Positions 29,468 to 64,000 of a stretch of DNA of 64,000 nucleotides are shown here, in pieces (position 1 is the stretch's first letter; each line of letters begins with the position of its first letter). Location: assembly GCA_006386115.1 (NCBI GenBank), contig VFIW01000125.1:56726-120725 (forward strand), in the 5' to 3' direction. The notes beneath the pieces were generated by a model. That model was not told where the DNA came from and made no database searches. It saw only the letters and a list, made by a program, of their open reading frames with translations. The position numbers and the translations under genes are program-made. Source of the DNA: Globisporangium splendens (Eukaryota > Oomycota > Peronosporomycetes > Pythiales > Pythiaceae).

Positions 29468-29469
29468 CC

Positions 29470-29517: not shown

Positions 29518-30588
29518 ATGAGTACTGACGAAGAACCGATGATGAATCTCGAACCCGCGGAAACCGCGAGTGCGACGATCAACCGGGAGGATTGCCTCCA
29601 CTTGAGTGATCTCGAGTGGAGTGCCTTCCAACGGATGAGGACGATCATCGGCGAAAAGGCCGTGTTCGCCATCCTTGCCACCCTGTCGCAGGATCAACAT
29701 CGCCTCACGGCGATCGGGTTCCTGCAGAAGGAGGCAGAAGACCGTGGAAGAGAAGCAACCCGCGCAGCTCCTGCGCAGGTACAGTTCCCACGACAAAAGC
29801 CTGTGAGGCTTGAAGTCGCGAAGTATGGCGGAGGAGACAATGAGCCTCTCCTCCGATGGTTCGTCGAAATCGATGCCGCCATTCGCTCCGGACAAATCTA
29901 CGATCCGGAGCAACAGGTCGATTTCGCGATGTCCAAGCTCGCTGGGAGAGCCAAGAGCTGGGCATTTGGTCGCCGAATGGCCGACCATGGTTGTTTCTCC
30001 ACACTTTCGGAGTTTAAAGGCGACATCCGTGCCGCCTTTGAGCCACCAAAGTCGGAATTCCGTACTCGCACGGAATTTCTCGAAATCCGACAGGATAAAC
30101 GCGATCTCCACGCGTATATCCAGCATGCCCGATACTTGGTATCAAGTATCGTGTCTGAGCCAATCGACATGGCGACGCAAGTCGCCACGTTCATGAAAGG
30201 TTTGGTGGATGGTCCCGTCAAGACCTACCTGTTCCGGGAATACCCGGAAACGCTAGAGCAAGCAATCGCTCTGGCACTTCAGGAAGACTTTAGCGCGAAG
30301 CAAGCACGGCTTCACGCGTTCCCTTACCGCGCCGCGCAGTTCCGGCACGCGAGACCTCCTCCACGTTACAGTGGATCCGAACCAATGGATCTCTCGTTGG
30401 TTCAAGCTCCGGCGGCTCCGAAGAGACCCGTCGACAAGCGCAAGCTGCGGTGCCACCGCTGCCAGAAACTGGGGCACTTTCAATACGAGTGCCGAGCGGC
30501 GCAGCCCGCTCCCCGCGTCCGAGACACACATCGGACGACTTCTTCGCGTCCAACGCGCGAAGAATCAAAAAACGTCAACCACCAGTAG
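29518..30588 (+). CDS. gag: Gypsy A Gag
   Basis: 356 residues from the first ATG (MSTDEEPMMNLEP). The capsid-like retrotransposon Gag domain is visible as PLLRWFVEIDAAI, FAMSKLAGRAKSWA, SEFKGDIRAAFEPP, RTRTEFLEIRQ, and YLVSSIVSEPIDMATQVATF. A single zinc knuckle (CHRCQKLGHFQYEC) sits near residue 320. The stop (30586-30588) lies inside the hairpin of the frameshift signal. Gag forms the particle and binds the RNA genome. Confidence 0.93.
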   Translation: MSTDEEPMMNLEPAETASATINREDCLHLSDLEWSAFQRMRTIIGEKAVFAILATLSQDQHRLTAIGFLQKEAEDRGREATRAAPAQVQFPRQKPVRLEVAKYGGGDNEPLLRWFVEIDAAIRSGQIYDPEQQVDFAMSKLAGRAKSWAFGRRMADHGCFSTLSEFKGDIRAAFEPPKSEFRTRTEFLEIRQDKRDLHAYIQHARYLVSSIVSEPIDMATQVATFMKGLVDGPVKTYLFREYPETLEQAIALALQEDFSAKQARLHAFPYRAAQFRHARPPPRYSGSEPMDLSLVQAPAAPKRPVDKRKLRCHRCQKLGHFQYECRAAQPAPRVRDTHRTTSSRPTREESKNVNHQ

Positions 30589-30607
30589 ACGCGGGGCGCT
30601 CTACTGG
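30567..30607 (+). promoter_or_regulatory. -1 ribosomal frameshift signal, Gypsy A
   Basis: Slippery heptamer A AAA AAC at 30567-30573, in the gag phase required for a -1 slip. An 8-nt spacer is followed by a perfect 8-bp stem, CCAGTAGA (30582-30589) with TCTACTGG (30600-30607), and a 10-nt G-rich loop. Pol is open in exactly the -1 frame from here. Confidence 0.88.
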
Positions 30608-33600
30608 CGAATATGCGTCTGGTGTGATCGTGGTGCACGAGACGCAAGCCCCCAGCGTGCATGACACGCGCTGCTGGACTACCACGACTGCGGAGGAGCC
30701 GAGAGATCGGCTCATCCAACTTGAGATAACCGTAGAGGGATTTACGACCCCTCTGTGGGCACTGCTAGACACGGGTGCGTCGAACAACTTTGTTCGATCA
30801 CATGTCGCCCGTGCACTAGCGAGAGTAATTTCGGAGGAATCACGTTCCTCCGAGTCGAAGATCACCGTGCGGTTGGCAACAGGTGCCACCGTAGCGACAG
30901 AGACACACGTGACACGACTCCGCGTCACGCATGATGGACGCCAAATGGAAGGAGACTTCATTTGGCTGGATTTGGATGACAAGTTCGATGTCGTCCTTGG
31001 AATGCCATGGCTGAAGAAGTATCAGCCGATCATCGATTGGAATCGACAATCGATCAGTTACCCCGCTATGAAGCGGAACAAGGCTAACCGCCCGTCGGCG
31101 CGCAACGCGCTGTCGGTTAACGAACATGATGCAAGGGTGTGCGATGGCCCCCTTAGCACGATGCTCGATGGAGAAGCCGCCCGAAAGTCTAAAGGACAGA
31201 CTTCGGTTGCTCATCGCTCTGTACTGAAGAGCGATGACGAAGGAAAGGTACCGCCAATGGAGACCTCTGATCAAGGCTCCTCGTGCGAAGTCATCAGTGT
31301 CATGGTCACTGATGAAGATGGATCTCATATTCATGAGGTGGCGTTAGAAGACCCTCTGAAGGACGCTTCGGAAGTGGTGACGCTACCCGTCATGAGCCAG
31401 AAACGGTTCATGAAAGAACTGCATCGAGGCACCCTCGAGCAGATTTGTTACATCGCTCCTCGGGAAGCGAGCAATGCCGAGTCGGCAGTGCAGAGACACC
31501 CACTCGATGAATGTTTCCTTGCGTCGTCATCAGTGATGGACACTGATGTGCTCGACGAGCCAACGAAGAAGGAACGATTTCAGGCTCAGGGATGGGAATC
31601 CCTGAAGGACAGTCCATTCTACGGACTATTGAAGGAGTACGAAGACGTATTCCCAGAAGAAGTTCCCAGTCGTCTTCCGACAGACAAAGGAGTTCGGCAT
31701 GAGATTGATCTCAAGTCGGGAACAAAGTACTGCGTCACGAGGCAATGGCCACTGCCTCGAGAGCAAGTCAAGGTGATCGACGAGTTCTTTGAAGCTCGTC
31801 GTAAAGCGGGCCAAGTGTGCGAGTCGAATTCTCCGCACTGCAGCCCCACCTTCTGTGTGAAAAAGGCCACAGGAGGTTGGAGGATCGTGCATGCGTTCAA
31901 CAAGTTGAATGCGGCAACAATCCCGGCGCAAACGCCGATACCTCGCAAAGATGTCATCATTGACAGCATGCAAGGTAGTACTATCTTTAGTACGATCGAT
32001 TTGAGAGATGGGTTCTATCAAATCTTGATGCGTGAAAAGGATATCCCTTTCACAGCAGTCAGCACCCCGAGCGGGATGCTGTGGGAGTGGCTCGTAATGC
32101 CACAGGGACTAACAAATGCTCCCGCCACGTTCAATAGATGCGTCACGCAACTATTACGTCCAGTGCGAGACTTCGCACCAAGCTATTTTGACGACGTGTT
32201 CATACACAGTCGTGCATCGGATGCTGCATCCGATGTGGAAGTGCACAAAGAGCACCTCCGACAGCTATTAGACTTGATGCGGAAGTACAAGCTGTACGCC
32301 AACATACAAAAGTGTATGTTTGGTGTTGATGAGATCCCCGTTCTCGGTTGCTTTGTCGGCAAGAACCGAGTGCGTCCTGATCCCGAAAAGATCAAGGCGA
32401 TCAACGACTGGCCCGTCCCAACAAGCCAAAAGGATCTTCGCAAGTTCCTCGGTCTTGCGACGTATCTCCATGAGTACTCGCAGAACTATGCGGGTATCAT
32501 CCGACCTCTTTCATCATTACTGAAGAAAGACGTCGACTGGAAGTGGTCCAACGAATGTCAAGATGCATTCGTCAAGGTGAAACGCAGTCTCATGGAAGCT
32601 CCGGTTCTCGCGATCGCTGATCACGAGCGACCATTCTATGTGGTCTGTGATGCATCCGACTTTGCAATCGGATGCGCGCTCATGCAGCGCGACGATGCAG
32701 ATCGCGAACGCGTGATCTGCTATCAGTCGCGTCAGCTGAAGCCAGCTGAGCGCAATTATCCGGTTCATGACAAGGAGTTGCTTGCCATGAAGTACGCTCT
32801 TACGAAGTTCAGAGTGTATTTGCTCGGAAGTAAACGGTTCACCGTTTACACTGACCACGCTTCGCTGCGCACCGCAGTGAAGTCGCCACATCTGTCGCAA
32901 AGAATGGCCCGATGGCTTTCTTTCTTTGCGGAGTACGAGTTTGACGTCGAGTACAAACCCGGACGGTTCAACGTGATCGCGGATGCATTATCACGTCGCC
33001 CAGACTTTGAGTCGAAAGCAAACGACTCAAAGGAAGACCGTGTGATGGCAATCACACGGGAAAGCACGCCGACATCGTCGCTCCTCGACGATATCAAAAG
33101 AGCGTATGCGACAGATAGCGACATCAGTCGACTTGTTGCCCACTTGTCAGACCCGTCTGATAAGTCGCTCAAGGCGTTGGATCCGGCTCAACGCGCTCGT
33201 CTACATCGTTACGAGATGCGCAACGATGTTCTCTACTACCGTATAGATGACAGCGACGAGCCACGCGCTGTCGTTCCAAACAATAGTGACCTTCGCAATC
33301 GTGTGCTCTTTGAGTACCACGATGCGCCTTTCCGCGGCCATCCAGGACGCGAGAAAACGTATCTCGCGCTTTCCCGCGACTTCTATTGGTCACACCAATA
33401 CAAGTGGGTCCACAAATACGTACGCGCATGCGAGGTTTGCCAGCGCGTCAAGCCAGCACCGGTGACCAACGCACCGCTGCGATCTCTGCCAGTCCCGACG
33501 GACTGTTGGAAGTCAGTCTCGATGGACTTCATCTTCGGTCTTCCTGCTGACTCCAGCAAGAAGACTGGCATCCTCGTCATCGTGGATCGCTTCAGTAAGA

Positions 33601-34919
33601 TGGCCCATCTCAGTGCTGTCCCTGCTAGCGTCACCGCAAAGCAGACGGCGCAGATATTCCTGGATTCTGTGTTTAGGTTACACGGAATGCCCACTGAAAT
33701 CGTGTCGGACCGAGATCCACGATTCACAGCTGCCTTCTGGCAAGAGTTGTTCCGACTCTTGGGCACTCAGCTCAAGATGTCGACAGCTGACCATCCGCAG
33801 ACAGATGGTCAGACCGAGCGTGTGAATCGCACGCTCGAGGATATTCTGCGCAGCTATGCGCATTCATTCACTCACTGGAGTGAATGTCTCCCTCTCGCAG
33901 AGTTTGCAATCAACAACTCTGTGCATGTCTCAACCGGGCACACGCCATTCTACGTGAACGCCCTCAGGCACCCACGTGTTCCGTCCATCCTCGGTGGGAT
34001 GTCCCCTCCGTCGGTGATATCTCCCTTGAGTGGGGGAGGAGTCCGCGAAGCAGCTGCTTCGGAACAAGCGAAGAGCGCGGAGATCTCGCACCATCATTGG
34101 CAGGCAACTGCTCATGCGGCGATCGTCGACAAAGACATTGTTACAACAGTGTTGCAGCGGCAAGCTGTCATCCGCTTCGTCCGCGATTCAATCACCGACG
34201 CAGTGGATGGTCAGAAAGAACAAGCGGACAAGAGTGGCCGCAAAAACACGAACGAGTTTCAACGAAATTCGTTTGTTTTATTATCGACTGCTAACCTACC
34301 TAACAGAGTGGTGAGCAGTGGCAGCAACAAGTTGCTGCCAAGATACATTGGCCCTTTCAAGGTCCTTGAAAGGATTGGGGACGCATACACGTTGGAGCTT
34401 CCTCCGACCATGCGTCTACACCCGACGTTCTACGTCGGGCGTCTCAAAGCGTATCATCGCCACGATGACTCGTTGGTCTCTTCCTCTTCAGGAGACCGTG
34501 GTCGCGAAGGATCCCAAGCACAAGCTTGTGATCAGCCTCGAGCCTCGAAAGCCGTCCCTCGAGCCGCTCGTGCTTCGCGATCATCTCGCTTAGCTCGGCC
34601 CGAAGTCGGAGAACCTCGTTCTCCCGCTCAGCGTACTTCAGCCGATCAAGAAGACGCTGATCACTCTGAGGATGCGCCTCAGAGTCACGAGCAGATCTTC
34701 CCTCCTCCAGCTCCTCCGTTGCGAGACTCCGAGGGGAACCAACGCTGGATCGTGGAGAAGATACTTGCTCATCGCGATCGATCGTCGCGAGGGAAGAAGG
34801 AGCGCGTCTATCGCGTTCGTTGGCTTGGTTACCCGCCAGATCGAGATACCTGGGAACCGGCCGCGATGCTCCAAGCCGATGTTCCTGGCTTGGTGCAGCA
34901 GTACGAGAGTCGACGCTAA
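30567..34919 (+). CDS. pol: Gypsy A Pol: protease, RT, RNase H, integrase, chromodomain
   Basis: Open reading frame with no breaks, about 1450 residues from the slip site. In order: aspartic protease ALLDTGASNNFVR with LGMPWLKKYQP (30760-31040); reverse transcriptase with DLRDGFYQILM and YFDDVFIHS (about 31690-32400); RNase H with VVCDASDFAIGCAL and TVYTDHASLRT; zinc-binding integrase N-domain (H/H around 33310-33350, CEVC); DDE integrase core with SMDFIFGLP, VSDRDPRF and QTDGQTERVNR; and a C-terminal chromodomain (YRVRWLGYPPDRDTWEP) at about 34735-34919. This is the domain order of chromoviruses. All visible catalytic residues are present. Expression by -1 frameshifting from gag is strongly supported. 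Confidence 0.95.
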   Translation, partial: KKRQPPVDAGRSTGEYASGVIVVHETQAPSVHDTRCWTTTTAEEPRDRLIQLEITVEGFTTPLWALLDTGASNNFVRSHVARALARVISEESRSSESKITVRLATGATVATETHVTRLRVTHDGRQMEGDFIWLDLDDKFDVVLGMPWLKKYQPIIDWNRQSISYPAMKRNKANRPSARNALSVNEHDARVCDGPLSTMLDGEAARKSKGQTSVAHRSVLKSDDEGKVPPMETSDQGSSCEVISVMVTDEDGSHIHEVALEDPLKDASEVVTLPVMSQKRFMKELHRGTLEQICYIAPREASNAESAVQRHPLDECFLASSSVMDTDVLDEPTKKERFQAQGWESLKDSPFYGLLKEYEDVFPEEVPSRLPTDKGVRHEIDLKSGTKYCVTRQWPLPREQVKVIDEFFEARRKAGQVCESNSPHCSPTFCVKKATGGWRIVHAFNKLNAATIPAQTPIPRKDVIIDSMQGSTIFSTIDLRDGFYQILMREKDIPFTAVSTPSGMLWEWLVMPQGLTNAPATFNRCVTQLLRPVRDFAPSYFDDVFIHSRASDAASDVEVHKEHLRQLLDLMRKYKLYANIQKCMFGVDEIPVLGCFVGKNRVRPDPEKIKAINDWPVPTSQKDLRKFLGLATYLHEYSQNYAGIIRPLSSLLKKDVDWKWSNECQDAFVKVKRSLMEAPVLAIADHERPFYVVCDASDFAIGCALMQRDDADRERVICYQSRQLKPAERNYPVHDKELLAMKYALTKFRVYLLGSKRFTVYTDHASLRTAVKSPHLSQRMARWLSFFAEYEFDVEYKPGRFNVIADALSRRPDFESKANDSKEDRVMAITRESTPTSSLLDDIKRAYATDSDISRLVAHLSDPSDKSLKALDPAQRARLHRYEMRNDVLYYRIDDSDEPRAVVPNNSDLRNRVLFEYHDAPFRGHPGREKTYLALSRDFYWSHQYKWVHKYVRACEVCQRVKPAPVTNAPLRSLPVPTDCWKSVSMDFIFGLPADSSKKTGILVIVDRFSKMAHLSAVPASVTAKQTAQIFLDSVFRLHGMPTEIVSDRDPRFTAAFWQELFRLLGTQLKMSTADHPQTDGQTERVNRTLEDILRSYAHSFTHWSECLPLAEFAINNSVHVSTGHTPFYVNALRHPRVPSILGGMSPPSVISPLSGGGVREAAASEQAKSAEISHHHWQATAHAAIVDKDIVTTVLQRQAVIRFVRDSITDAVDGQKEQADKSGRKNTNEFQRNSFVLLSTANLPNRVVSSGSNKLLPRYIGPFKVLERIGDAYTLELPPTMRLHPTFYVGRLKAYHRHDDSLVSSSSGDRGREGSQAQACDQPRASKAVPRAARASRSSRLARPEVGEPRSPAQRTSADQEDADHSEDAPQSHEQIFPPPAPPLRDSEGNQRWIVEKILAHRDRSSRGKKERVYRVRWLGYPPDRDTWEPAAMLQADVPGLVQQYESRR

Positions 34920-36054
34920 TCGACTCTCGCTTCCACAACTCGCGGATTCGATCTTGCAATCCGCGAGGAAGCATCACGCCGTTGTAACCACGAAGGTGCT
35001 CCTCAGTCAACTGAGGATCATCGCTGGTGCAGATGCGGCAACCCCTCGGTGTGGTCTTGACTCCACACGGAACCCCAAGATCCACGCATTCCTCGTGGAT
35101 CGCCAACAACTTTCCAACGGCATTGTGCCGGAGGAACTTATCCCGATTATCTCGCAATCGAGAGATACACTTCGCAGCGTCTTCGTTGAAATTCACAACG
35201 AAGGCACCCCACGCTTGCGAAAGGAACAGCGCTTGTTTCTCAGCGCTGTGAGACTTCTTTGACTTCGATCGACCATCGAAGTACCGCATCGAATGGAAAA
35301 GGTCGATGTAAAACTCCTCGCGCGCCTTGGGATGGAAGTTCTGTCGAAGGACGAAGTCATCGTCCTTGATGGTACTAACATCGTACAGCGCGTGAATGCC
35401 CGCACGCTGGGTGCCACGATGTGTACGAACCCAATTGGGTTTGGGCGCCCATAAGTGACTCCAGCTAGAAGGGACGAAATCCATCCCTTCAGAAGGACCC
35501 GTCACCGGATCCTTCTCCTCCGCCGGAAAGGCAAGATGGCGTGGCAACTCGCTATTTCCCGATGACGCAGTAACCTGCGCATCAGATTCGGATTCCACAT
35601 CGAAGAGCAAGTCCTCGAGTGGATCGACAGCTTCCAGTTCACAATTGGACGCGTCCAGCGTGAGAAGGATATTTCTCGCTGCATTCACCAGGTCGGGATC
35701 AGCTGACGCTAATCCTTCCCGACCGAGATTTTCCATCGTGTTGGCAGATGTCACGCTTTCCGACGCTCCGACGTCGGAAATGGCAACCGCCACGGTGGAT
35801 CCGCTCGTTTCTCCGTGAGGAGATCCCTCCTCACGACGCTTCTTCCGCGTAGGCTCATTCAAGAGGGCCGCGGACGACGAACGTTTCGCTTCGTTTCGTT
35901 TGAGATTCGAACGGTCAACGGAAGAAGACTCGGCTTCTTCCTCCCGATCGTCACGCACGACATTCGTCGTGGTGCTACTCATTGGAGTGTTGCAAGGAGT
36001 CACCTCCTCGCTACTCGACTCGTAGTCAACAGCATCACTGTCGATCGAAGACAT
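34444..36054 (-). CDS. Gypsy A antisense ORF (aORF-A), unknown function
   Basis: 536 residues from the ATG at 36054 (MSSIDSDAVDYESSSEE), encoded opposite to pol; its last 476 nt overlap the 3' end of pol, including the chromodomain. The N-terminal third is Ser/acidic with a basic cluster (RKKRR, residues about 60) that could be a nuclear signal. The middle (DDDFVLRQNFHPKAREEFY, LFHSMRYFDG, QALFLSQAWGAFVVNF) looks like a folded helical domain with a Cys-rich part (CGVKTTPRGCRIC). The C-terminus is a Leu/Glu/Arg heptad coiled coil. I do not recognise a family. A frame this long, holding a coherent domain outside the pol overlap, is unlikely to be a shadow. Its promoter would be in or near the 3' LTR. 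Confidence 0.7.
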   Translation of the reverse strand: MSSIDSDAVDYESSSEEVTPCNTPMSSTTTNVVRDDREEEAESSSVDRSNLKRNEAKRSSSAALLNEPTRKKRREEGSPHGETSGSTVAVAISDVGASESVTSANTMENLGREGLASADPDLVNAARNILLTLDASNCELEAVDPLEDLLFDVESESDAQVTASSGNSELPRHLAFPAEEKDPVTGPSEGMDFVPSSWSHLWAPKPNWVRTHRGTQRAGIHALYDVSTIKDDDFVLRQNFHPKAREEFYIDLFHSMRYFDGRSKSKKSHSAEKQALFLSQAWGAFVVNFNEDAAKCISRLRDNRDKFLRHNAVGKLLAIHEECVDLGVPCGVKTTPRGCRICTSDDPQLTEEHLRGYNGVMLPRGLQDRIRELWKRESISVDSRTAAPSQEHRLGASRPVPRYLDLAGNQANERDRRAPSSLATIDRDEQVSSPRSSVGSPRSLATEELEEGRSARDSEAHPQSDQRLLDRLKYAERENEVLRLRAELSEMIAKHERLEGRLSRLEADHKLVLGILRDHGLLKRKRPTSHRGDDTL

Positions 36055-36687: not shown

Positions 36688-36692
36688 CTCTC

Positions 36693-36946: not shown

Positions 36947-37524
36947 GTTGATGGCAAATTGAGAAGTGAGATTGAGAAATTGTTTAAGAAAAACTCAACT
37001 ACTTCGTTGCTAGTCCTTGGCCCCCTTGGGCTCTTCCTACTCTGTTTCTTTCTCTTGCGTGCTACTTGATATTTTACTGGATTTTTTACTGGATTTTCTC
37101 ATGTCTGATTTTTCTTCCTTTTGTAAGAGGGCGCTGTTCCAAACAGTCCCTCAAACACGGCACACACGCTTGTGCCAGAGGAAGCGATCTCCCGACTTGG
37201 AGGGAGGAAGAAGACTTGAGGGCTTGGAGGAAAATTTGCAACTGAATTAAATGTAGTTATGGTTCCTGTCGCTACTTACAAATGAACCCCAAGGGATCCT
37301 ACAGGTTTTATAACTAAAACCTAAACATGCATAATAAAACCTATGAATCTGATATATAAAACCTTGGGTACACTGAGGTTGAACCTGCGGGATCTTCTAG
37401 AAGCTTGAACTTCAAGTCTTGTATAAAATCCCTGCAAAGTGATTGGCTCGCGCCACTCACTCCAGGTGGCAGAGACACGTCGGTCTCGTCGCCAGTCCAG
37501 TTTCCCAAGCAGGAACCATCACTC

Positions 37525-37600
37525 AGTACTTGATTAGTACATGGATGTTATCACTCTGTACTGATTAGTACATGAGAACAACATTCTGCACTGATCAGCA
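37525..37600. promoter_or_regulatory. three spaced palindromes in Gypsy C LTR
   Basis: AGTACTTGATTAGTACA (37525-37541), TGTACTGATTAGTACA (37557-37572) and TGCACTGATCAGCA (37587-37600) are related palindromes about 31 nt apart. The same array is in the other LTR (around 44526-44602). Such spacing suggests a bound dimeric regulator; function is inferred. Confidence 0.45.
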
Positions 37601-37613
37601 CAGAGAACACTCG

Positions 37614-37634
37614 TGACGTCATCGAATGACGTCA
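37614..37634. promoter_or_regulatory. paired TGACGTCA (CRE/bZIP-type) sites, Gypsy C LTR
   Basis: Two perfect TGACGTCA octamers (37614-37621, 37627-37634) form a 23-nt palindrome. They are repeated in the other C LTR (44615-44622, 44628-44635) and in the diverged D LTR (57447-57454, 57460-57467). TGACGTCA is the classical ATF/CREB-type bZIP site. Confidence 0.6.
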
Positions 37635-37847
37635 CACGTGCATGTGGGGACTGTATTACCGTAATCCCTTTGTTATTTGTGTCTCCACAATGCACGCTGA
37701 AGGTGGTGTGTGACACACTAGATCTGGGAACAGATCCACCTTCATGTAATGGCTGGTTGTGGCCCATTACATCATCCCCTCCTTAAAGTCACAAGTACCT
37801 TGCGTACTTTTGCAGACCTTTCGGAGCAGTTCACTTTGCAATTGGCA

Positions 37848-38915
37848 ATGAAGCGACCAAGTGACCAAGTGAACCGTGAAGAACGTCCGTCGTCCAAGCG
37901 ACAGCGGACAGCTCCAGAACTCTTCGACATTTCTCCCATTCTGAAGAAGAAGGGGGAGCTCGAGTTCTACAAGGAGCGGTTCTTCAGTTGGCGTCGGATC
38001 AACGATCGCGATGATCCGAACCAACACATCGCAGCCCAGAGAGACTCATGGCGAACATTTGTTCGTCTTGAGAATGAGAACAAGATGGAGCGTCTTCTTC
38101 GTCGTGGCAATGCTCGTGCCCAAAGAAGAACTCCCGCTGACGACAGAGCGAATCCTAGCTCTGGTCGTCGTAGTGTCGCCCCTGGCGACGCTACAAGCAG
38201 TTCTCATAGCTGCGGACCACGTCGGGAACATCAGACTCCAATGTCTGACGAGGCTCCCACGTGTCCGAGCTCGGTGGATATCCACGCCACCGAACTCTGT
38301 AGAAGCGTTGATGGTTCAACTGCTTCTTTCCTCGACGATGAGTCGGTCGATCTTCATGATCAACAATCGACTCAACCACCCAGCGATGCTCTCCCTGAGA
38401 GTCTAACAACGGGGGTGGGGCTGAACGAGAAAACGATTGAGCGACTCTGGAAGTGGAAGAGTGCTCATCGTGGGCAAATCGAGGCTTTGCAGCAGCGTTG
38501 TTCGACACTTGAGGAACGCTGCGAGAGTCTCGAGAACCTTGTCGCCGATCATGAGTCGAAGATCGACGATCTGACAGAAGGTTCTGCCCAGTGTTCGGCT
38601 TTGGAGTCCCGTTTCGAGGAACGGTTCCAACAGGTTCAGGACGAACTTGTTCGACTCCAGAAGAACGAGAAGTCTCGTGAGTTGGCTCACGATCGCCTGT
38701 TGCGCTCTGTGGAAGAGGCAGGTTCGGCACTCGAGGTACTTCGTGGTGAGTACCATTCTCGTCTTCAAGCGTTGGAGGCAGTGAAGGACCAATCCTTCGA
38801 CGTCCTGCAACTCCTGTACGCCGAGAAGAATCTCCAGAGCGATGAGCTGTTTGCTCTTCGCAATCAAGTGGAGAAGCTTCACGATCAGCTCGATCGTTTG
38901 CGGAAGATCTCGTAG
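37848..38915 (+). CDS. Gypsy C antisense ORF (aORF-C), coiled coil, unknown function
   Basis: 355 residues from an ATG at 37848 (MKRPSDQVNREERPSSKRQR), just inside the 3' LTR, running opposite to pol. The N-terminal half has a basic cluster (SSKRQR), then a conserved patch (LFDISPILKKKGELEFYKER, SWRTFVRLENENKMERLL). The C-terminal half is a long coiled coil starting GLNEKTIERLWKWKSAHR. The last 725 nt overlap the pol 3' end. The whole protein aligns with aORF-D, including start and stop positions, despite clear divergence. Its promoter would lie in the LTR. No known family recognised. Confidence 0.78.
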   Translation: MKRPSDQVNREERPSSKRQRTAPELFDISPILKKKGELEFYKERFFSWRRINDRDDPNQHIAAQRDSWRTFVRLENENKMERLLRRGNARAQRRTPADDRANPSSGRRSVAPGDATSSSHSCGPRREHQTPMSDEAPTCPSSVDIHATELCRSVDGSTASFLDDESVDLHDQQSTQPPSDALPESLTTGVGLNEKTIERLWKWKSAHRGQIEALQQRCSTLEERCESLENLVADHESKIDDLTEGSAQCSALESRFEERFQQVQDELVRLQKNEKSRELAHDRLLRSVEEAGSALEVLRGEYHSRLQALEAVKDQSFDVLQLLYAEKNLQSDELFALRNQVEKLHDQLDRLRKIS

Positions 38916-41900
38916 GATCCGCAGATCCACTTGGAAGGTAAGGCTTCAGTCTACCCACATAAAATGTTGGGTGTAGACGCATGCGTGTAGGAATGTCTAG
39001 CGTGTAGGCATCACCATTGCATTTCACTACCTTGAACGGTCCAATGAACCTTGGCAGAAGCTTCGAGCTTCCCAAGTTGGACACTGCATGTTCAGGCAGG
39101 TTCGCCGTGCTAAGTAATACAAGATCATTGATCTTATATACTTGCTTGTTCTTCCTTCCGCTCTTGTCTGCTTGTTCCTTTTGCAGATCCTGAGCCTTCG
39201 CGATTGCGTCTCGAACAAACCTCACAACGGCTTGTCTCCTCACAATAAAGTCATCGACTTGCTGCCCTTCACGACTTGTTAGGTCGTCGAGGGGTTTCAT
39301 CGAGTCAAAATTGGCTTTCAACTCGGAAGCAGCACTCAGGTCATAAGACGACTTCGGCTTGTTACCATGAGCCGGAGTCCCTCCCCCACTTAAGGTAGAG
39401 ACCTCACCCATTATGGAAGCAGGCACTCGAGGGTGAATGCCATAGTTCACATAAAATGGAGAGTGACCTGTCGAGACATGCGTGGAGTTGTTCAACGCAA
39501 ACTCGGCAAGAGGGAGAAACTCACTCCACTCTTTGAAAGACGTTGCGTAGCTGCGCAACACGTCTTCCAGGACACGATTCACTCGCTCTGTTTGACCGTC
39601 CGTTTCAGGGTGTGCCGCTGTTGACATGGACAACTTGGTGTCCAGAAGTCCGAACAGTGCACGCCAGAACTTGGACGTGAAACGGGTGTCACGGTCAGAC
39701 ACGATCTCGACTGGTAGTCCGTGCAGACGGAATACGACGTCTACAAAGACCTTGGCAGTCTTTTCCGCTGAGATCTTGTCCGAAACAGGCGCAAGATGGA
39801 CCATCTTGCTGAATCGGTCCACAAACACAAGGATGCCATTGCGTCCATGTGTGTCTCTTGGAAGTCCGAATATGAAATCCATACTCACAGACTTCCAACT
39901 GTCCGATGGGACAGCCAATGAACGAAGTGGTGCCTGCGTGGAACCAGAAGGTTTCACTCGTTGGCAGACCTCGCAAGTCCTCACATACTTGCGCACCCAC
40001 TTGTACATGTGTGGCCAGTAGTAATCCCGGGAAAGACTGAGAAACGTTTTCTCACGTCCGAGATGGCCACCCGAAGGACTGTCATGGTACTCATACAAGA
40101 GTCGATGACGCAGACCTTCGTCGTTGGGAACAACAACCCTTGCTGTATCCCCTTGTTCAACCGCGTAGTACAACAACCCATTGTGTACTCGAAAGCGGTG
40201 AACTCGCGATCTTGTGCGCGACGGAAGACCTTGCAGCGCTTTGTCGGAAGGGTCCTTGAAGTACTTCAGCAAGTCCTGACATGTTTCGTCAGACTTGTAC
40301 CCTTCGACGATCTCTTCTCGCACTGTAGTCGCAGCTCGCACCGCGATCGCTTGAACATCTTCACAGAGTCGACACGCTCCGTCCGTGTCTTCACTCTTGG
40401 TCTTCGGATCGTAATCCGGACGTCTTGACAGCGCATCGGCTAAGATGTTCGTCTTGCCTGGCTTGTAGTGTACAACGAAGTTGTACTCTGCAAAGAAGGA
40501 GAACCATCTCGCCATTCTTTGCGACAAATGAGGAGTCTTCACTGCCGTACGCAGAGATGCGTGATCAGTGTAGATAGCAAAGCGCTCCTCGCCAAGCAGA
40601 TACACACGGAACTTGACCAAAGAATACTTCATCGCCAGAAGTTCCTTGTCGTGAACTGGGTAGTTCCGTTCTGCGGGTCGGAGTTGTCGTGACTGATACG
40701 ACACAACTCGCTCATGACCCTCATCATCATGTTGCATTAATGCGCAACCGATGGCATAGTCGCTCGCATCACAGACGACGTGGAACGGCTTGTCGTGGTT
40801 TGGCAGAGCCAACACAGGAGCTTCTCGAAGACTCCTCTTGACTTCTTCGAACGCCGTCTGATGGTCTTTCGACCACTTCCACTCAACGTCTTTCTTCAAG
40901 AGCTGTGTGAGGGGTTGCACCAACGCTGTATAATTGCGTGTGTACTTGTGCAAGTAGTTGGCTAAACCCAACCATTGTCGTAGCTGTTTGACGTTCTGAG
41001 GCACTGGCCAATCGTCAATAGCTTTGACCTTCTCCGGATCGACTCGAACACCGCTCTTGCCCACAAAACAACCGAGAACAGGGATCTCGGGGGAGAACAA
41101 CATGTACTTCTTCAAGTTAGCGTAGAGTTTGTTCTCACGCATGACCTGGAAGACTTGACGAAGATGATCGAGATGAACATCGACATCAGACTTCCCATTC
41201 GTAGCCATACTATGAACGAAAACGTCGTCAAAGTAACTTGGTGCAAATGTTCGCAGAGGACGAAGAACGTTCGTGACCATTCGATTGAAGGTCGCAGGAG
41301 CATTCTTCAGTCCCTGTGGCATCACTAACCATTCCCACAGCATACCACTCGGGGTACTCACTGCGGTTAGTGGAACATCGTCTTCGCGCATTCGAATCTG
41401 ATAGAACCCATCTTTCAGATCGATAGCACTAAAGACGGTGCTGCCAACCATTCCATCAAGGATCATGTCCTTGCGTGGAACCGGAGTCTGGGCTGGAATT
41501 GTCGCGTCGTTCAGCTTGTTGAAAGCGTGAACAATGCGCCAACCTCCAGTTGCCTTCTTCACACAGAAAGTGGGGCTGCAATGCGGAGACTTGCTCTCCC
41601 GCACATGACCAGCCTTAGCACGTTGTGCAAAGAACTCGTCGATTGCCTCGACTTGTTCCTTTGGCAACGGCCACTGTCTTGTGATGCAGTACTTCGTGCC
41701 AGGAAGTACATCAATCTCATGACGAATGCCTCTATCGAATGGCAATTCGTCCGGCACCTTGTCAGGGAAAATGTCTTCATATTCCCTGGCAAGCGCATAC
41801 ACGGGGTTCTTCTTGAGGGCGTCCCACGACTGCTCCTCGAACCTTTCCTTCCGTGTCTTTTCGTCCAACACATCTGCATCCGCACTCGATGCTGTGTTGA

Positions 41901-42976
41901 CGAAGCCTTCGTCGACCATTTCGACGATCACACACACCTGCGCAATGTCGCCTCTCGCTAGGCTGCGCTCCAGTGTCTTCTTGCTCATCGATGGCAAGGA
42001 AATCAACTCTTCGACTGAACTTGGAGGATTTTCAATCTTCACGTGACGGATTACATCCACGTCACCTTCTTCATTGTAGACCGCGACATTCACAAACTCG
42101 CTTGGAATGTCTTGTGCTTGGTCACTCCCTTCATCATCGCCACTTGCACCTTGATCAGGGGTACTCAAAACTCTTGACGAAACACTTCTCTTGCTGGTCT
42201 TCTTCTTCTTGGGAAGGGTGTCTGTTCCACTTCCATTCACTCTTGTCAACGCCATCGCGAACCTTGTCGTCGTCGATGGCAAAGGAGACAGTCTTTTTCT
42301 GGCGCCTGACTGCTCCACCTCCGTTCGTCGTCTTCAAAATGGGTACCACTTGTGAACATGGGGGGCCATCGCACACCGCAATATCACAAGGGACATCTGG
42401 GATCTCTTCCACAGATGTATACACCCATACTACTTCATCCGTTGTTGTGCAGCACAAGTCAACATCGCGTGACTTGTCAACGGAGATCTTCATATTCATC
42501 CAGTCAATGCTAGGTTGGTAACGCTTCAACCACGGCATTCCCAGGATGATGTCAAACTTGTCATCGAGGTCGAGTAAAATGAACTCGTCTTCACCTCGGA
42601 AATCTTCACACTTGATTGCCAAGCGCACCACGCGCTTCGGCATCTTCACAGTTGACCCATTTGCCAACCGGACAATCATTGTCTTCTCTTCATTCGCACC
42701 AGGCACGAAGACACCATGCCTGACGACCACTTCATTTCGAACAAAGTTGTTCGACGCACCAGTGTCAACCAAAGCTCGTAGAGGCGTTGCAATACCGTCT
42801 ACATGAACTTTGTGAACGATCAAACTTGACGTTTGACTGACACTCTTCTCACTCATAGTGGAAACTGCATGTGCTTGATGCACATAGGGGCCAGAGTCCT
42901 GTGTCTCCACAACGTCCACAGTCCTCTTTTCCGGGCCAGTAGGAGGCCCCACCCCTACTGTCCATTCCCGTTTTTT
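38191..42976 (-). pseudogene. pol: Gypsy C Pol with one frameshift
   Basis: The first part (42155-42976, -1 to gag) carries the protease (LVDTGASNNFVRNE, ILGMPWLKRYQP). The reading frame changes once in the non-conserved linker between about 42155 and 42318, and then stays open for 1375 codons: reverse transcriptase (DLKDGFYQIRM, YFDDVFVHS), RNase H (VVCDASDYAIGCAL), zinc-binding and DDE integrase (SMDFIFGLP, SDRDTRFT, ETDGQTERVNR) and a chromodomain at the end (YRVRWRGYPPSSDTWEP). All catalytic motifs are present, so this single break may be all that inactivates it. An artefact of sequencing at that site is possible. Confidence 0.88.
42937..42976 (-). promoter_or_regulatory. -1 ribosomal frameshift signal, Gypsy C
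   Basis: Heptamer A AAA AAC (42976 down to 42970) in the correct gag phase, 9-nt spacer, stem CAGTAGG (42960-42954) with CCTACTG (42943-42937), 10-nt G-rich loop. As in Gypsy A the gag stop lies inside the stem. Confidence 0.87.
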
Positions 42977-44004
42977 GGCCCAGGTGACCGCTCGAACCGA
43001 CGACCGTAAGAACGATCGCGGTTGTTCGAACGAGCACCCTGTGTCGTTTGCCGACCCGGCAAAGACACCTTGCAGTTCCGAGCAATGTGACCCGGCTTCC
43101 CGCAACGGAAACACTTCCCATCGTTGCGAGGACGCTCATTTCCAGGCGTGGAAATGTACGAGATGTCCATGGGCTCGGGACCATCATGCACGACATTTGA
43201 TTGCCGCATTGGTCTTGACGCAAACCCATGGAACTTCGCTTGCTTGATGCTGAACTCTTCTTGCATCGCGCGCTCAATGGCTTCGTCCAGCGTCTTGGGA
43301 TACTCGCGGAACAGTTGGTTCCGAATCGGACCATCGTTCAGACCCGTCATGAACGTCACGACTTGCGTTGGAACGTCAATCGGCTCGTCAACGATGCTCG
43401 ACACCAAGTAACGAGCACGTTGTGCATACGAGTGAAGGTCGAAACGGCCTTGACGAAGCTTGAGGAACTCGGCGCGCGCACGGAACTCACTCTGTGGAGG
43501 TTCAAACGCCTTCTTGAGTTCGGTCTTGAAGTGGTCGTAGCTGGGGAAGCAGTTTAGATCGGCTAAACGCTTGCCATACGCCCAGCTCTTCGCACGACCC
43601 GCAAGGTTGGACATCGCGAACAACACTTGCTGCGAAGGGTCTCGCAGTTGTCTTGCAGTGATCGCTGCATCCAACTCGACGAACCATCGTGAGAGGGGTT
43701 CGTTCTCTCCGCCACGGTACGGAGAGACGTCAAGCTTCAGTGACACCGTCCTGATTGAGGAAACAGGGGTTGCGACCTGCTTCCGGGAGGACATGATCTC
43801 GTGGTGCATGAAGCTGACCACCGCGCTCTTCTGGTCCTCCGGAGATGCCGATCGAAGCAGACTGACCACGGCAGCCTCTCCGATGACATCTCGCATGCGC
43901 TCAAGCGCCATCCACTCATGAGAAGACAGATGAGGGAAACCCTCAATAGTCAACTCGACAGTTTCCGGTACTGCTGGACCGAGTGGGGTTCCTGTAGCAT
44001 CCAT
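42955..44004 (-). CDS. gag: Gypsy C Gag
   Basis: 349 residues from the first ATG at 44004 (MDATGTPLGPAVPETVELTI). Same architecture as Gag A: PLSRWFVELDAAI, FAMSNLAGRAKSWA, LKKAFEPPQSEFRARAEFL, YLVSSIVDEPIDVPTQVVTF, then a zinc knuckle CFRCGKPGHIARNC. The gene is intact. The frame is open 26 codons further upstream from a GTG. Confidence 0.92.
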   Translation of the reverse strand: MDATGTPLGPAVPETVELTIEGFPHLSSHEWMALERMRDVIGEAAVVSLLRSASPEDQKSAVVSFMHHEIMSSRKQVATPVSSIRTVSLKLDVSPYRGGENEPLSRWFVELDAAITARQLRDPSQQVLFAMSNLAGRAKSWAYGKRLADLNCFPSYDHFKTELKKAFEPPQSEFRARAEFLKLRQGRFDLHSYAQRARYLVSSIVDEPIDVPTQVVTFMTGLNDGPIRNQLFREYPKTLDEAIERAMQEEFSIKQAKFHGFASRPMRQSNVVHDGPEPMDISYISTPGNERPRNDGKCFRCGKPGHIARNCKVSLPGRQTTQGARSNNRDRSYGRRFERSPGPKNGNGQ

Positions 44005-44110
44005 GTTCCAGACAAGGATGCTCGCAGGGTCTTGGACAGGAATGCGCGACGTGCTTAAAGCCGCGTCAACAAACCTCTTCACTTCACTGGGTCGTTGGAA
44101 GGACCGCTCG

Positions 44111-44123: not shown

Positions 44124-44772
44124 TGTAAGAGGGCGCTGTTCCAAACAGTCCCTCAAACACGGCACACACGCTTGTGCCAGAGGAAGCGATCTCCCGACTT
44201 GGAGGGAGGAAGAAGACTTGAGTATTTGGAGGAAAATTTGCAACTGAATTGAAAAGGTTATGGTTCCTGTCGCTACTTACAAATGAACCCCAAGGGATCC
44301 TACAGGTTTTATAACTAAAACCTAAACATGCACAATAAAACCTATGAATCTGATATATAAAACCTTGGGTACACTGAGGTTGAACCTACGGGATCTTCTA
44401 GAAGCTTGAACTTCAAGTCTTGTATAAAATCCCTGCAAAGTGATTGGCTCGCGCCACTCACTCCAGGTGGCAGACACACGTCGGTCTCGTCGCCAGTCCA
44501 GTTTCCCAAGCAGGAACCATCACTCAGTACTTGATTAGTACATGGATGTTATCACTCTGTACTGATTAGTACATGAGAACAACATTCTGCACTGATCAGC
44601 ACAGAGAACACTCATGACGTCATCGAATGACGTCACACGTGGATGTGGGGACTGTATTACCGTAATCCCTTTGTTATTTGTGTCTCCACAATGCACGCTG
44701 AAGGTGGTGTGTGACACACTAGATCTGTGGACAGATCCACCTTCATGTAATGGCTGGTTGTGGCCCTTTACA
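44124..44772 (-). repeat. Gypsy C 5' LTR
   Basis: 649 bp. Nearly identical to 37122-37771; differences seen include the outermost bases (CTTTACA here, CATTACA in the other copy). Confidence 0.92.
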
Positions 44773-52386: not shown

Positions 52387-52387
52387 T

Positions 52388-52565: not shown

Positions 52566-55500
52566 GTGTTGCGTATGGCAATCGAATGTGATGATTTCCG
52601 AGGTGGAGACGAGTTTATAGCACTCGACCTCGATGGCAAGTTTGATTTGATTCTGGGAATGCCCTGGTTGAGAAGGTACCAACCGAGCATTGACTGGAAG
52701 AAGAAGAAGATCAGCGTCGACAAGCAAGTCGACGAAGACCTCGGTTGCCAAGCAGCAAGAGAGGTGATTTGGGCATATACATCTGTTGAAGATGTGTCTA
52801 ATGAGAGTCAGGCGTGCGATGGCCCCTCACACTCAAATGACAAGCCCGTGAAGACCACTGGAGGTGGAGTAGTCAGGCGCCAGAAAAAGACTACTCCTGT
52901 AGCCAAGAGCGATGTGGAGTTCCGCTCTGGCAGGGTTAAAGAAGACAAGAAGACCGACGAAGAAGAACGAAGATCTGCAAGCGTCCCTGATCAAGACACA
53001 AGAGAAGCAGAAGATGAAGTGAAGAAAGAAAAACAAGCCACTTCAAGCGAATATGTGAACGTCGCAGTCTACAATGAAGAAGGTGACAGCCAGATAGTGC
53101 GTCACGTACAAGTTGAAAATCCTCCAAGTCTGGCTCAAGAATTGATTTCCTTGCCGTTGATGAGCAAGAAGACGCTCAAGCGTAGCCTGGCGAAAGGCGA
53201 AATTTCGCAAATTTGTGCGATCGTCGATGAAGCTGCCGACGATGTCATCAACACTGCGGAAGTGTTAGATGAGAAGACACGGAAGGAAAGGTTTGACGAG
53301 CAGTCGTGGGACGCTCTAAAGACAAACCCCGTGTATGGACTTGTCAAGGAATATGCGGACATATTCCCAGACAAAGTGCCTGACGAATTGCCGCAAGACA
53401 GAGGCATTCGTCACGAGATAGATGTACTTCCGGGAACGAAGTACTGTATCACAAGGCAATGGCCGCTACCGAAGGAACAAGTCGATGCAATCGATGAGTT
53501 CTTCGCGCAGCGACAGAAGGCTGGTCATGTGCGCGAGAGCAAGTCTCCGCATTGTAGTCCCACCTTCTGTGTTAAGAAGGCCACAGGTGGTTGGCGTATT
53601 GTTCATGCATTCAACAAATTGAATGATGCGACCATACCTGCTCAGACCCCAGTTCCACGTAAGGATGTGATCCTTGATGGAATGGTTGGCAGCACTGTCT
53701 TTAGCGCGATCGATCTGAAAGATGGATTCTATCAGATTCGTATGCGTGAGAGCGATGCACCATTTACAGCAGTAAGCACCCCTAGTGGTATGCTGTGGGA
53801 GTGGATGGTAATGCCACAAGGTCTGAAGAACGCGCCAGCAACTTTCGACAGAATGGTCACGAATGTACTTCGTCCATTGAGAGAGTTTGCACCGAGCTAC
53901 TTTGACGATATCTCCGTCCACAGTAAGGCTTTGGGAAAGAAGAAGGATGTTGATGTTCATCTTGAACATCTCCGTCAAGTTTTTCAGGTTATGCGTGAAA
54001 ACAAATTATACGCTAACTTGAAGAAATGCATCTTCTTCGTCCCTGAGATCCCTGTACTCGGTTGCTTTGTTGGCAAGAATGGCGTTCGAGCTGATCCTGA
54101 GAAAGTCAAGGCTATTGACGATTGGCCTATTCCTCAGAATGTCAAACAACTACGCCAGTGGTTGGGTTTGGCGAACTACCTGCACAAATACACACGCAAT
54201 TACGCAGCATTAGTGCAACCTCTCACGAGTCCCCTGAAAAAGGACAATGAGTGGGAGTGGTCTGAGGAACATCAGGCAGTGTTTGCTGAAGTGAAGAAGA
54301 GCTTAAGAGAAGCTCCTGTCCTAGCTCTCGCAGATCATGAGAAGCCGTTCCATGTAGTCTGCGATGCGAGCGATTATGCCATCGGGTGTGCACTGATGCG
54401 ACACGATGACGAGGGCAAAGAAAGAGTTGTGTCGTATCAATCACGACAACTCAGGCCCGCAGAAAGGAACTATCCGGTCCATGACAAAGAACTTTTGGCC
54501 ATGAAGTATGCATTGGCAAAGTTCCGAGTCTATTTGTTTGGTGAGGAGCAGTTCGCTATTTACACTGATCACGCATCACTGCGGACAGCTGTAAAGACGC
54601 CTCACCTATCGCAAAGAATGGCAAGATGGTTTTCCTTCTTTGCTGAGTATAACTTTGTTGTACACTACAAGCCCGGCAAGTCCAACATACTTGCTGACGC
54701 TTTGTCAAGACGTCCGGGCTATGATCCGAAGAACAAGAGTGACGACACGAACGGAGCGTGCCGACTCTGTGAAGACGTCAACGCGATTGCTACGGGAGTG
54801 ACAAGCACAATCCAAGAAGAAATCACTGAGGGCTACAAGAGAGACGAAGCATGTCAAGACTTGATCAAGTATTTCAAGAATCCCTCAGATAAGGCACTCC
54901 AAAACCTCCCATCAAGAGCAAGATCGCGTGTTCACCGTTACAGCATGCACAATGAGCTGTTGTATTATGCGGTTGACGAAGGGGATCCAGCGAGGATCGT
55001 TGTCCCCAACGACGAAGGTCTGCGTCATCGACTCTTGTACGAGTGTCATGACGGTCCTTCGAGTGGCCATCTCGGACGTGAGAAAACGTTTCTCAACTTG
55101 TCTCGAGATTACTACTGACCTCACATGTACAAGTGGGTTCGCAAGTATGTGCGTACTTGCGAAGTGTGCCAAAGAGTTAAGCCATCTGGCTCTACTCAGG
55201 CTCCACTTCGTTCATTACCTGTCCCATCGGACAGTTGGAAGTCTGTGAGTATGGATTTCATATTCGGACTTCCAAGAGACACACATGGACGCAATGGCAT
55301 CCTTGTGTTTGTGGACCGATTCAGCAAGATGGTCCATCTTGCGCCTGTTTCGGACAAGATCTCAGCGGAAAAGACTGCCAAGGTCTTTGTAGACGTCGTA
55401 TTCCGTCTGCACGGACTACCAGTCGAGATCGTGTCTGACCGTGACACCCGTTTCACGTCCAAGTTCTGGCGTGCACTATTCGGACTTCTGGACACCAAGT

Positions 55501-56942
55501 TGTCCATGTCAACAGCGGCACACCCTGAAACGGACGGTCAAACAGAGCGAGTGAATCGCGTCCTCGAAGACGTGTTGCGCAGTTACGCAACGTCTTTCAA
55601 AGAGTGGAGTGAGTTTCTCCCTCTTGCCGAGTTTGCGTTGAACAACTCCACGCATGTCTCGGCGGGTCACTCTCCATTTTATGTGAACTATGGCATTCAT
55701 CCTCGAGTGCCTGCTTCCATAATGGGTGAGGTCTCTACCTTAAGTGGGGGAGGGACTCCGGCTCATGGTAACAAGCCGAAGTCGTCTTATGACCTGAATG
55801 CTGCTTCCGAGTTGAAAGCCAATTTTGACTCGATGAAACCCCTCGACGACCTAACAAGTCGTGAAGGGCAGCAAGTCGATGACTTTATTGTGAGGAGACA
55901 AGCCGTTGTGAGGTTTGTTCGAGACGCAATCGCGAAGGCTCAGGATCTGCAAAAGGAGCAAGCAGACAAGAGCGGAAGGAAGAACAAGCAAGTGTATAAG
56001 ATCAATGATCTTGTATTACTTAGCACGGCGAGCCTGTCTGAACATGCAGTGTCCAACTTGGGAAGCTCGAAGCTTCTGCCAAGGTTTATTGGACCGTTCA
56101 AGGTAGTTAAATGCAATGGTGATGCCTACACACTAGACATTCCTAAACGCATGCGACTACACCCTACGTTCTACGTAGGTCGACTAAAGCCTTACCTTCC
56201 AAGTGGGTCAGCGAACCCTATAGAGCCTTTGACGGATGATCAAGTTGATCCTGAAGTCGCTCCACCAGCTCGCGAAGAGTCTGTAACTCATCGTCATGGA
56301 GCTTCTTCTCGGCATAAAGGCGCTGAAGCACATCAAAGGACTCGTCCTTTATTGTCTCCAACGCGAGAAGGCGACCATGATACTCCTTCCGAAGTATCTC
56401 AAGAGAAACCCCTGCCTCTTCCACAGAGCGCAGTAGACGTTCGTGATACGCATCACGAGCTTTCTCAGCCTTCTGGAGTCGTTCAAGCTCGACTTGAATC
56501 TTCTCGAACCTCTGTTCGAAACGTGACTCCATTGCCGGACGCTGGACAAGACCATCGAACAGCAAGTCGATCTTCGACTCCTGCTCCTTCAACCGGTCTT
56601 CGAGGCTTTCGCACCGGTCTTCGAGTACCGCGTTGCGAACTTCAAGAGCCTCGATCTGAGCGCGGTGAGCACTCTTCCACTTCCAGAGTCGCTCAATCGT
56701 TTTCGCGTTCAACCCCACCTCCTCTGATCGATCATCAGGGAGAGCGCCGTTGGATCGTTGAGTCGATAGTCGATCATGAGGACCGATCGACTCGTTGTCG
56801 AGGAGAGAAGTCGTTAAACCGTCAACGCTTCTACAGAGTACGGTGGCTTGGCTATCCACCGGACTCAGACACGTGGGAACCTCGAGAGACTCTTCAGCCT
56901 GATGTTCCCGACGTGGTTCACAGCTATGAGCAGAGCTTGTAG
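52566..56942 (+). pseudogene. pol: Gypsy D Pol, truncated and with one stop
   Basis: Begins at the end of the protease (IALDLDGKFDLILGMPWLRR). Reverse transcriptase (DLKDGFYQIRM, YFDDISVHS), RNase H, integrase and chromodomain (YRVRWLGYPPDSDTWEP) follow in one frame. A TGA at 55116-55118 falls in the integrase zinc-binding domain, where Gypsy C has Trp. Open for 850 codons before and 600 after this stop. The residue after YFDD is Ile here, Val in C. Confidence 0.9.
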
Positions 56943-57243
56943 TGCTCGCAAGAGCACTAGAACGACGAGAGCCAAGCTCTTTATGGTCGTTCTCGAGCGT
57001 GCCTCCTAGGTTCCCTAGCAAACGCTCGACAAGATGCTCGTTCTCGAGTCGGACAAACGTCTTCCACGACTCGAGCTTCGCTGTGCTGCACTGGCTTGGA
57101 TCGCCGCTGCCAGACATCTTGCGCCAGAGGAAGAACAACTCCTTGTAGAATCGACGTTCTCCACGCTTCTTGCAAATAGCGGAGATGTCGTACAACCCGG
57201 GAGTCGTCCGCTGCCGCTTCGCTTGGTCGCTTGATCGCTTCAT
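56218..57243 (-). CDS. Gypsy D antisense ORF (aORF-D), homologue of aORF-C
   Basis: 341 residues from the ATG at 57243 (MKRSSDQAKRQRTTPGLYDI). Alignable with aORF-C from end to end: the N-terminal KRQRT and DIS patch, FYKE, SWKTFVRLENE, the KTIERLWKWKSAHRAQIEAL start of the coiled coil, RLLRSVEEAG, and SFDVLQRLYAEK. It overlaps pol by 725 nt (56218-56942), exactly as aORF-C does. It is uninterrupted although D pol contains a stop. Unknown function; basic cluster and coiled coil suggest a nuclear oligomer. Confidence 0.78.
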   Translation of the reverse strand: MKRSSDQAKRQRTTPGLYDISAICKKRGERRFYKELFFLWRKMSGSGDPSQCSTAKLESWKTFVRLENEHLVERLLGNLGGTLENDHKELGSRRSSALASTTSSAHSCEPRREHQAEESLEVPTCLSPVDSQATVLCRSVDGLTTSLLDNESIGPHDRLSTQRSNGALPDDRSEEVGLNAKTIERLWKWKSAHRAQIEALEVRNAVLEDRCESLEDRLKEQESKIDLLFDGLVQRPAMESRFEQRFEKIQVELERLQKAEKARDAYHERLLRSVEEAGVSLEILRKEYHGRLLALETIKDESFDVLQRLYAEKKLHDDELQTLRELVERLQDQLDHPSKAL

Positions 57244-57307
57244 GGTCAATTGGAAAGTGAGAGCGGGTACCTCTTCCGAAAGAAGTAAAGTCCGTGATGG
57301 AACTTTA

Positions 57308-63860: not shown

Positions 63861-64000
63861 TTATCCCAGTCCGGGAGCACGTCGGTCTCATCAGGGGGCT
63901 CAGACGCCGCCCATCGAGACACGAGCGCGTTGTGCCTCTCCCAAAGCGTCTTCACTCGCGGAGCGTACCTCGCGTGGAAGTTCTTTCCGCGGACATGGTA
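63861..64000 (-). CDS. possible start of a Gypsy F antisense ORF (C-terminal end)
   Basis: A minus-strand frame enters from the right edge and ends with TAA at 63861-63863. The 46 visible codons read as plausible protein (VKTLWERHNALVSRWAASEP). Its position opposite the 3' end of pol matches aORF-A, -C and -D. Too short to be sure. Confidence 0.35.

Follow-up and report, generated by a model that had tools for sequence, protein, structure and literature searches.

Evidence for a selected antisense gene opposite pol in chromodomain-bearing Ty3/Gypsy elements of the oomycete Globisporangium splendens

Does a long open reading frame (ORF) that runs antisense into the pol gene of a retrotransposon encode a protein of its own, or does it stand open through the pol codons opposite? 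This question is raised by a stretch of 64,000 nucleotides (nt) of Globisporangium splendens (contig VFIW01000125.1, positions 56,726 to 120,725; hereafter the window), which is the end of its contig and holds several Ty3/Gypsy elements. In element C, located on the minus strand between long terminal repeats (LTRs) of 650 nt that are 97.7% identical to each other (3' LTR, 37122..37771; 5' LTR, 44124..44772), an antisense frame of 355 amino acids, aORF-C (37848..38915, plus strand), has its ATG 76 nt inward of the 3' LTR and ends within pol-C. We conclude from the pattern of substitutions that aORF is almost certainly a real protein gene under selection. The reading that we favour, in which it is an accessory gene of chromodomain-bearing Ty3/Gypsy elements that acts through the steps set out below, has in our estimate a probability of roughly 0.55.

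Element C carries gag-C (42955..44082) and pol-C (38191..42318) on the minus strand, the latter comprising reverse transcriptase, RNase H, integrase, an SH3-like domain and a C-terminal chromodomain (Pfam PF00385, E 2.6e-11; 38203..38382). The layout is convergent, aORF-C being opposite in direction to gag-pol, and the antisense overlap of 725 nt (38191..38915) takes in both the chromodomain and the stretch from the integrase/SH3-like domain to the chromodomain (38407..38915, hereafter the linker), which lies opposite the predicted coiled coil of the aORF protein. A homologue of 341 amino acids, aORF-D (56218..57243, minus strand), overlaps pol-D of element D by 725 nt as well (56218..56942). 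As the original prediction had pointed out, aORF-D is open while pol-D (52566..56942, plus strand) has an in-frame stop (55116-55118) that splits it into ORFs 52566-55118 and 55125-56942.

Translations of both antisense frames are free of internal stops, and the two proteins align end to end at 61% identity, which bears out their presumed homology; outside pol they have in common the motifs MKRxSDQ, KRQRT, FYKExFFxWR and SWxTFVRLENE. The original prediction had seen strong evidence of a gene in the equal overlaps and in the occurrence of two independent copies. The overlap length is correct, but the overlaps of C and D can be aligned gap-free, so their equality is inheritance and not independent evidence; the copies are real, but they are better described as two subfamilies with many copies each. 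The gene itself is upheld, and the evidence then offered for it is weaker than the substitution data presented below. Searches for the same protein in other copies gave at least 114 C-like and at least 77 D-like genome matches. With the C query, 91 of the 114 scored C-like matches were free of in-frame stops, and with the D query at least 118 matches were scored, of which 77 had an identity of 76% or higher and 41 one of 61-64%. All these counts are lower bounds on the best candidates, which alone were scored, and they refer to matches found with the gene itself as query, element copies without the gene not being counted. At the protein level the family comprised 82 proteins found by search, 65 of them NCBI-named from G. 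splendens (the best matching the full query length with identities of up to 98%) and 17 from jgi, ena and lgn, on contigs shorter than 4 kb and with identity down to 43%. In an alignment of 34 members (P0001, P0002 and 32 of the 82 family proteins, down to 43% identity to P0001), the M-K-R start, FY...FF.WR, SW.TFVRLENE and many positions of the coil were invariant or at least 90% conserved. A scan of viral contigs revealed no relative.

An open frame says little by itself. When pol was recoded synonymously in 20,000 trials, an overlap as open as that observed arose in 0.9% of the trials for C, 0.35% for D and 33% for element B (described below), and frame openness was rejected as weak evidence for a gene on account of these frequencies. 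Moreover, pol alone holds other long antisense open runs, of 196 codons in C and 167 in B. Antisense openness alone is only mildly improbable, and it is the substitution pattern that settles, at the level of sequence, the reality of the gene.

This pattern was read first in the parts of the gene that lie outside pol (343 nt in C, 1135 nt in B and 970 nt in E, a further element described below), all of which display a third-position bias. Between C and D, over 101 codons, aORF positions 1, 2 and 3 differ at 33, 30 and 51 sites (nonsynonymous rate dN 0.36, synonymous rate dS 1.79); substitutions are thus unequally distributed over the codon positions, and not equally common as expected if nucleotide identity fully explained the likeness of the proteins. 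Among seven pairs of the C/D family, four had a dN/dS of 0.17-0.31 in this N-terminal part and two were saturated in dS, giving no usable dN/dS outside pol.

Within the overlap, the two frames are phased so that the third position of aORF codons lies opposite the second of pol codons, and the second of aORF opposite the third of pol. Comparing C and D in the region that is pol only, pol positions 1, 2 and 3 differ at 77, 45 and 280 of 988, 987 and 988 sites. In the linker, aORF positions 1, 2 and 3 differ at 45, 32 and 69 sites, so that the most variable site is the wobble position of aORF (pol position 2), while the wobble position of pol is the least variable. In the chromodomain the pol pattern is found again, with 14, 19 and 8 differences at aORF positions 1, 2 and 3. 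Every change was further classed by its effect on both frames as nonsynonymous (N) or synonymous (S), with NN/NS as the measure for aORF and NN/SN for pol; intervals are codon bootstraps, and the pairs compared share history and are not mutually independent, recombination between copies being evident. For C and D this gave 0.46 (0.34-0.62) for aORF and 1.18 (0.85-1.71) for pol in the linker, as against 1.25 (0.55-4.46) for aORF and 0.40 (0.20-0.81) for pol in the chromodomain. All six C/D-family pairs agreed: linker intervals stay below 1 for aORF and include 1 for pol, and in the chromodomain the reverse holds.

As control, a made-up aORF frame was placed in pol-only sequence. It gave 0.63 (0.27-1.50) and 0.87 (0.69-1.12) for C with copy L041, and for C with D 1.80 (0.84-5.66) in the further block and only 3 NN and 3 NS changes in the nearer one (0.44, upper limit undefined). 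The remaining control blocks offered too few changes to use or lacked sequence altogether, the results being wide or undefined where flanks were short. An alignment of 70 sequences, in which changes present in at least four sequences were counted, gave at aORF positions 1/2/3 40/33/63 outside pol, 49/38/86 in the linker, 12/24/13 in the chromodomain, and 17/83/11 and 43/135/17 in the pol-only regions. A third-position test on singletons was not used, since singletons mix lone representatives of diverged subfamilies with decay. As judged from these substitutions, selection in C/D guards the aORF protein opposite the linker, where pol is not detectably constrained, and the pol protein in the chromodomain, where aORF is not detectably constrained.

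A second lineage is provided by element B (LTRs, 29045-29468 and 36265-36688), whose pol-B (30450..34919, plus strand) also bears a chromodomain after the integrase (E 2.2e-13). Its antisense gene, aORF-B (34444..36054, minus strand; 536 amino acids), has a 476-nt overlap with pol-B and at least 81 genome matches. Outside pol, aORF-B is constrained in all four comparisons (dN/dS 0.34-0.36; 0.14-0.40 within the domain shared with C/D). On the coil side of the overlap, aORF NN/NS was 0.06-0.19 in all four pairs (upper limits 0.33-0.41); on the chromodomain side it was 0.77-1.12, that is without constraint, in three of the four, and pol NN/SN in the chromodomain was 0.03-0.24. From these comparisons, B repeats the aORF half of the split, and its pol half for the chromodomain only. 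The shared domain, LYDVS...FYIDLFHSMR...SW.AFV, resembles the N-terminal domain of C/D. Pairwise BLASTP gave weak matches of B to C (E 0.011) and to D (E 0.028), and a comparison of the N-domain profiles alone gave a score of 27.3 (E 5e-4, probability 31), exceeding every one of 200 column shuffles, the largest of which reached 23.2. The hhalign result for entire profiles (probability 90, E 1.7e-6) was rejected as a sign of homology, as its alignment covers the stretch opposite the homologous chromodomain. We regard the B domain as distantly related to that of C/D.

The third lineage, element E, is represented in the window by the last 50 residues of aORF-E (63848..64000, minus strand), the gene being cut by the contig end. 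It is full length in copies L075 and L079-L081, with 514 residues in L075, where its overlap with pol, in the same phase, measures 575 nt; a second subfamily retains full length at about 62-64% identity, and at least 84 genome matches were found. In L076 and L077 the gene is broken by a stop or frame change, and its C-terminal part matches that of L075 with an identity of about 96-98%. Comparisons of L075 outside pol revealed 94/70/142 differing sites over 261 codons with L078 (dN/dS 0.28), 129/104/183 with L079 (about 0.37) and 117/90/177 with L081 (about 0.29). Homology of the E protein to that of C/D or B was not detected, with two E sequences only.

As to the protein itself, the long coiled coil that had been proposed was recovered by structure prediction of aORF-C with AlphaFold2. 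The model consists of an N-terminal helical domain at about residues 29-93, a disordered middle (94-183) and a long helix (186-354), with a predicted local distance difference test score (pLDDT) of 70-88 in residue blocks 31-90 and mostly above 90 in the long helix. The coil of C and D has a hydrophobic period of 3.50, i.e. a heptad, and on these predictions the C/D protein is very probably a coiled-coil oligomer. Basic residues mark the N-terminus of the C/D proteins in the alignment. Sequence and fold searches of the PDB returned mostly coiled coils, along with other helical matches without clear meaning. The model of the B protein was poor (mean pLDDT 34.8) except for a C-terminal helix at 463-519.

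A candidate antisense promoter lies 17 nt before the ATG of aORF-C (37831..37846, plus strand), with a counterpart before that of aORF-D (57245..57260, minus strand). In Phytophthora infestans, an initiator (Inr, YCAYTYY) and a flanking promoter region (FPR, MWTTTNC) can join near the start codon; the joint motif is well conserved in only about 13% of the genes of that species, and both motifs were detected in Pythium ultimum too (PMC3599244). Sixty-eight C/D-family copies were examined, and an Inr-type match occurs at -16/-17 from the aORF ATG in 62 of the 64 whose start was located. The Inr plus FPR-like pattern turns up four times in the window, where 0.54 matches are expected, twice at the starts of aORF-C and aORF-D; the two other matches are at 36954-36969 (minus strand) and 45312-45327 (plus strand). 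The motif evidence, confined to C/D, is suggestive, and we consider a promoter of its own for aORF somewhat probable.

The closest known parallels are found in plants, from which antisense accessory ORFs that lie past pol and before the 3' LTR are already known, as described in PMC7264820 and PMC11963269 for the Tat/Retand elements (Grande gene23, RIRE2, Retand ORF4 and PvRetro13 ORF2, with Smc-type matches for some). PMC7264820 reports a proposed regulatory role for such ORFs, a nuclear GENE23 transcribed from a promoter upstream, and their function as an open question; PMC11963269 reports the TRP28 domain, thought to bind DNA, as encoded by 97% of Retand clusters. The likeness is one of position, as the antisense genes of C, D and B and, as read in other copies with the 3' LTR not mapped, of E likewise sit between pol and the 3' LTR, each also running into pol. 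Retand elements are non-chromoviruses in which pol and the 3' LTR stand 2.9-6.6 kb apart (PMC11963269); unlike in these, aORF runs 476-725 nt into pol and faces the chromodomain. At E ≤ 1, Pfam gave no TRP28 (PF04195) match for P0001, P0002, aORF-B (also as P0085), P0103, P0104 and P0080, and for the remaining members of the 34-member alignment the view covered 25 of 109 families; a genome search for the domain was silent, as was its control.

Retroviruses offer a further comparison. The HBZ protein of human T-cell leukaemia virus type 1 (HTLV-1) has a leucine zipper, and no bZIP match above cut-off was obtained for P0001, P0002, aORF-B, P0103, P0104 or P0080, the last having a weak one at E 0.13. 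The ASP frame of human immunodeficiency virus type 1 is reportedly an antisense ORF that shares its DNA with a sense gene of the retroelement (PMC8781085), as aORF does. It overlaps env and not pol; aORF, unlike ASP, overlaps pol and has a predicted coiled coil. HBZ is, according to PMC7264820 and PMC11963269, the nuclear product of an antisense gene read from the 3' LTR side. In oomycetes, PMC5348765 describes Chronos, a Ty3/Gypsy element with a chromodomain after the integrase, as in pol-C and pol-B, and with an additional RNase H; in pol-B and pol-C, Pfam at E ≤ 1 gives no RNase H besides the one linked to the reverse transcriptase. The word antisense is absent from the main text of that paper, and we found no oomycete antisense accessory ORF described in the open-licence PubMed Central literature, mostly judged from listings. 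The view of aORF as an undescribed accessory component is supported for oomycetes as far as these searches reach, and has to be narrowed in that the kind is known from plants. The differences from the plant genes are the host group, the protein families, the chromodomain-bearing pol, the depth to which the gene overlaps pol and the constraint that alternates between the frames.

In the reading that we favour, aORF would be transcribed from its own promoter beside the 3' LTR, convergent with gag-pol; its protein would oligomerise through the coiled coil, be taken into the nucleus by its basic N-terminus and act on the DNA, RNA or integration complex of its own element. Its most likely role would be that of a trans-acting regulator or nuclear cofactor, as has been proposed for the plant antisense ORF proteins and reported for HBZ; we hold the chance of such a nuclear function to be about even. 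The chromodomain of pol faces the disordered part of the aORF protein, and the aORF coil faces the pol spacer, whose own frame is without detectable constraint in C/D; with both proteins modular, the overlap would be tolerated.

Other explanations were weighed against this. That aORF is a by-product of pol, its frame open through pol codon usage and the likeness of the proteins inherited with that of the nucleotides, would fit the other long antisense runs in pol and the ease with which the openness of B is reached by shuffling, but we regard it as scarcely credible given the third-position bias in the gene parts outside pol in C, B and E and the low variability of the pol wobble position in the linker. 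It is also improbable that the antisense RNA matters rather than a protein, convergent transcription giving double-stranded RNA that limits the element. Antisense transcripts and small interfering RNA have been proposed for plant elements (PMC7264820) and the geometry here is convergent, but constraint in a codon frame and motifs kept down to 43% identity would be left unexplained.

The main rival, unlikely as we judge it, is a structural or virion accessory whose coiled coil binds Gag or integrase and aids particle assembly or transport. A long coiled coil fits a scaffold, and the same gene layout recurs in many copies across three lineages; the separate antisense promoter motif, however, fits a regulatory product better. 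Less likely again, if still ahead of the RNA explanation, is a self-limiting protein that controls copy number, supplied in trans even by copies with a dead pol such as D. The p22 protein of Ty1 is such a copy-number control protein, aORF-D is open where pol-D is stopped, and many copies could provide the protein in trans. Yet the C-like and D-like matches, at least 114 and at least 77, speak against strong self-restriction, and a single broken pol is one event.

Several observations also weigh against the accessory-gene reading itself. With regard to selection, the close C/D-family pair L031-L041 has a dN/dS of 0.56 outside pol, on 12 differences; L075 and L080 of element E differ there at 36/46/66 sites, with a dN/dS of about 0.60, the weakest; and the coil-side overlap of E is too similar among the copies compared to be informative on constraint. 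In the closest B pair, aORF opposite the chromodomain gave 0.11 (0.00-0.55) on few changes, and on the B coil side pol NN/SN was 0.09 (0.00-0.49) and 0.24 (0.04-0.75) in two of the four pairs, the other two having 0.42 (0.10-1.28) and 0.56 (0.08-2.38). With regard to the protein, the heptad signal is weak in B and E (83 and 37 of 2000 shuffles equally strong), the strict basic-cluster pattern is absent in P0047 and P0052 and located elsewhere in P0079, and PDB fold searches returned no match that gives the aORF-C N-domain a function. As for the promoter, one FPR position of the pattern was loosened once the sequences had been inspected, the C and D sites, being homologous, count as one event, and no such match precedes the B or E antisense genes.

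A bolder version, which we put forward as speculation and think doubtful, is that oomycete chromodomain Ty3 elements carry a two-gene antisense lock as standard. A trans-acting coiled-coil regulator would have its coil encoded in the integrase-chromodomain spacer of pol, this spacer being kept more for aORF than for pol; sense and antisense expression of one copy would be mutually exclusive, and copies with a dead pol would supply the regulator. If this were true, different N-terminal domains (a C/D/B type and an E type) on one layout would mean that the layout was reached or refilled more than once.

Identity between C and D is uneven along pol (38191-41878 versus 53255-56942). The overlap has 187 differences in 725 nt, the 725-nt pol block that adjoins the aORF stop has 27, and the following blocks have 97, 135 and 135; this patchiness suggests that the elements probably exchanged pieces. 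Some antisense proteins, e.g. P0041 and P0046, resemble C/D chimeras. On the plus strand, the likeness of element D to C starts directly after a Copia LTR. The neighbouring stretch 45029-52564 is flanked by LTR-like repeats (45029-45235 and 52358-52564, 96.6% identical), holds two Copia-type polyprotein ORFs, as judged from translations, and abuts the truncated pol-D at its right end. An inverted relic at 28300-28793 is like the LTR region of element B (77% to 36164-36687, 75% to 29045-29467).

With these elements, oomycetes join plants and retroviruses among the settings in which a retroelement accessory protein is coded on the opposite strand, and the selection tests show that the aORF protein itself is selected. 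Few natural examples are as clean as this overlap, in which one stretch of DNA serves two proteins with constraint alternating between them, and many near-identical copies together with three lineages in one genome make the question of function testable.
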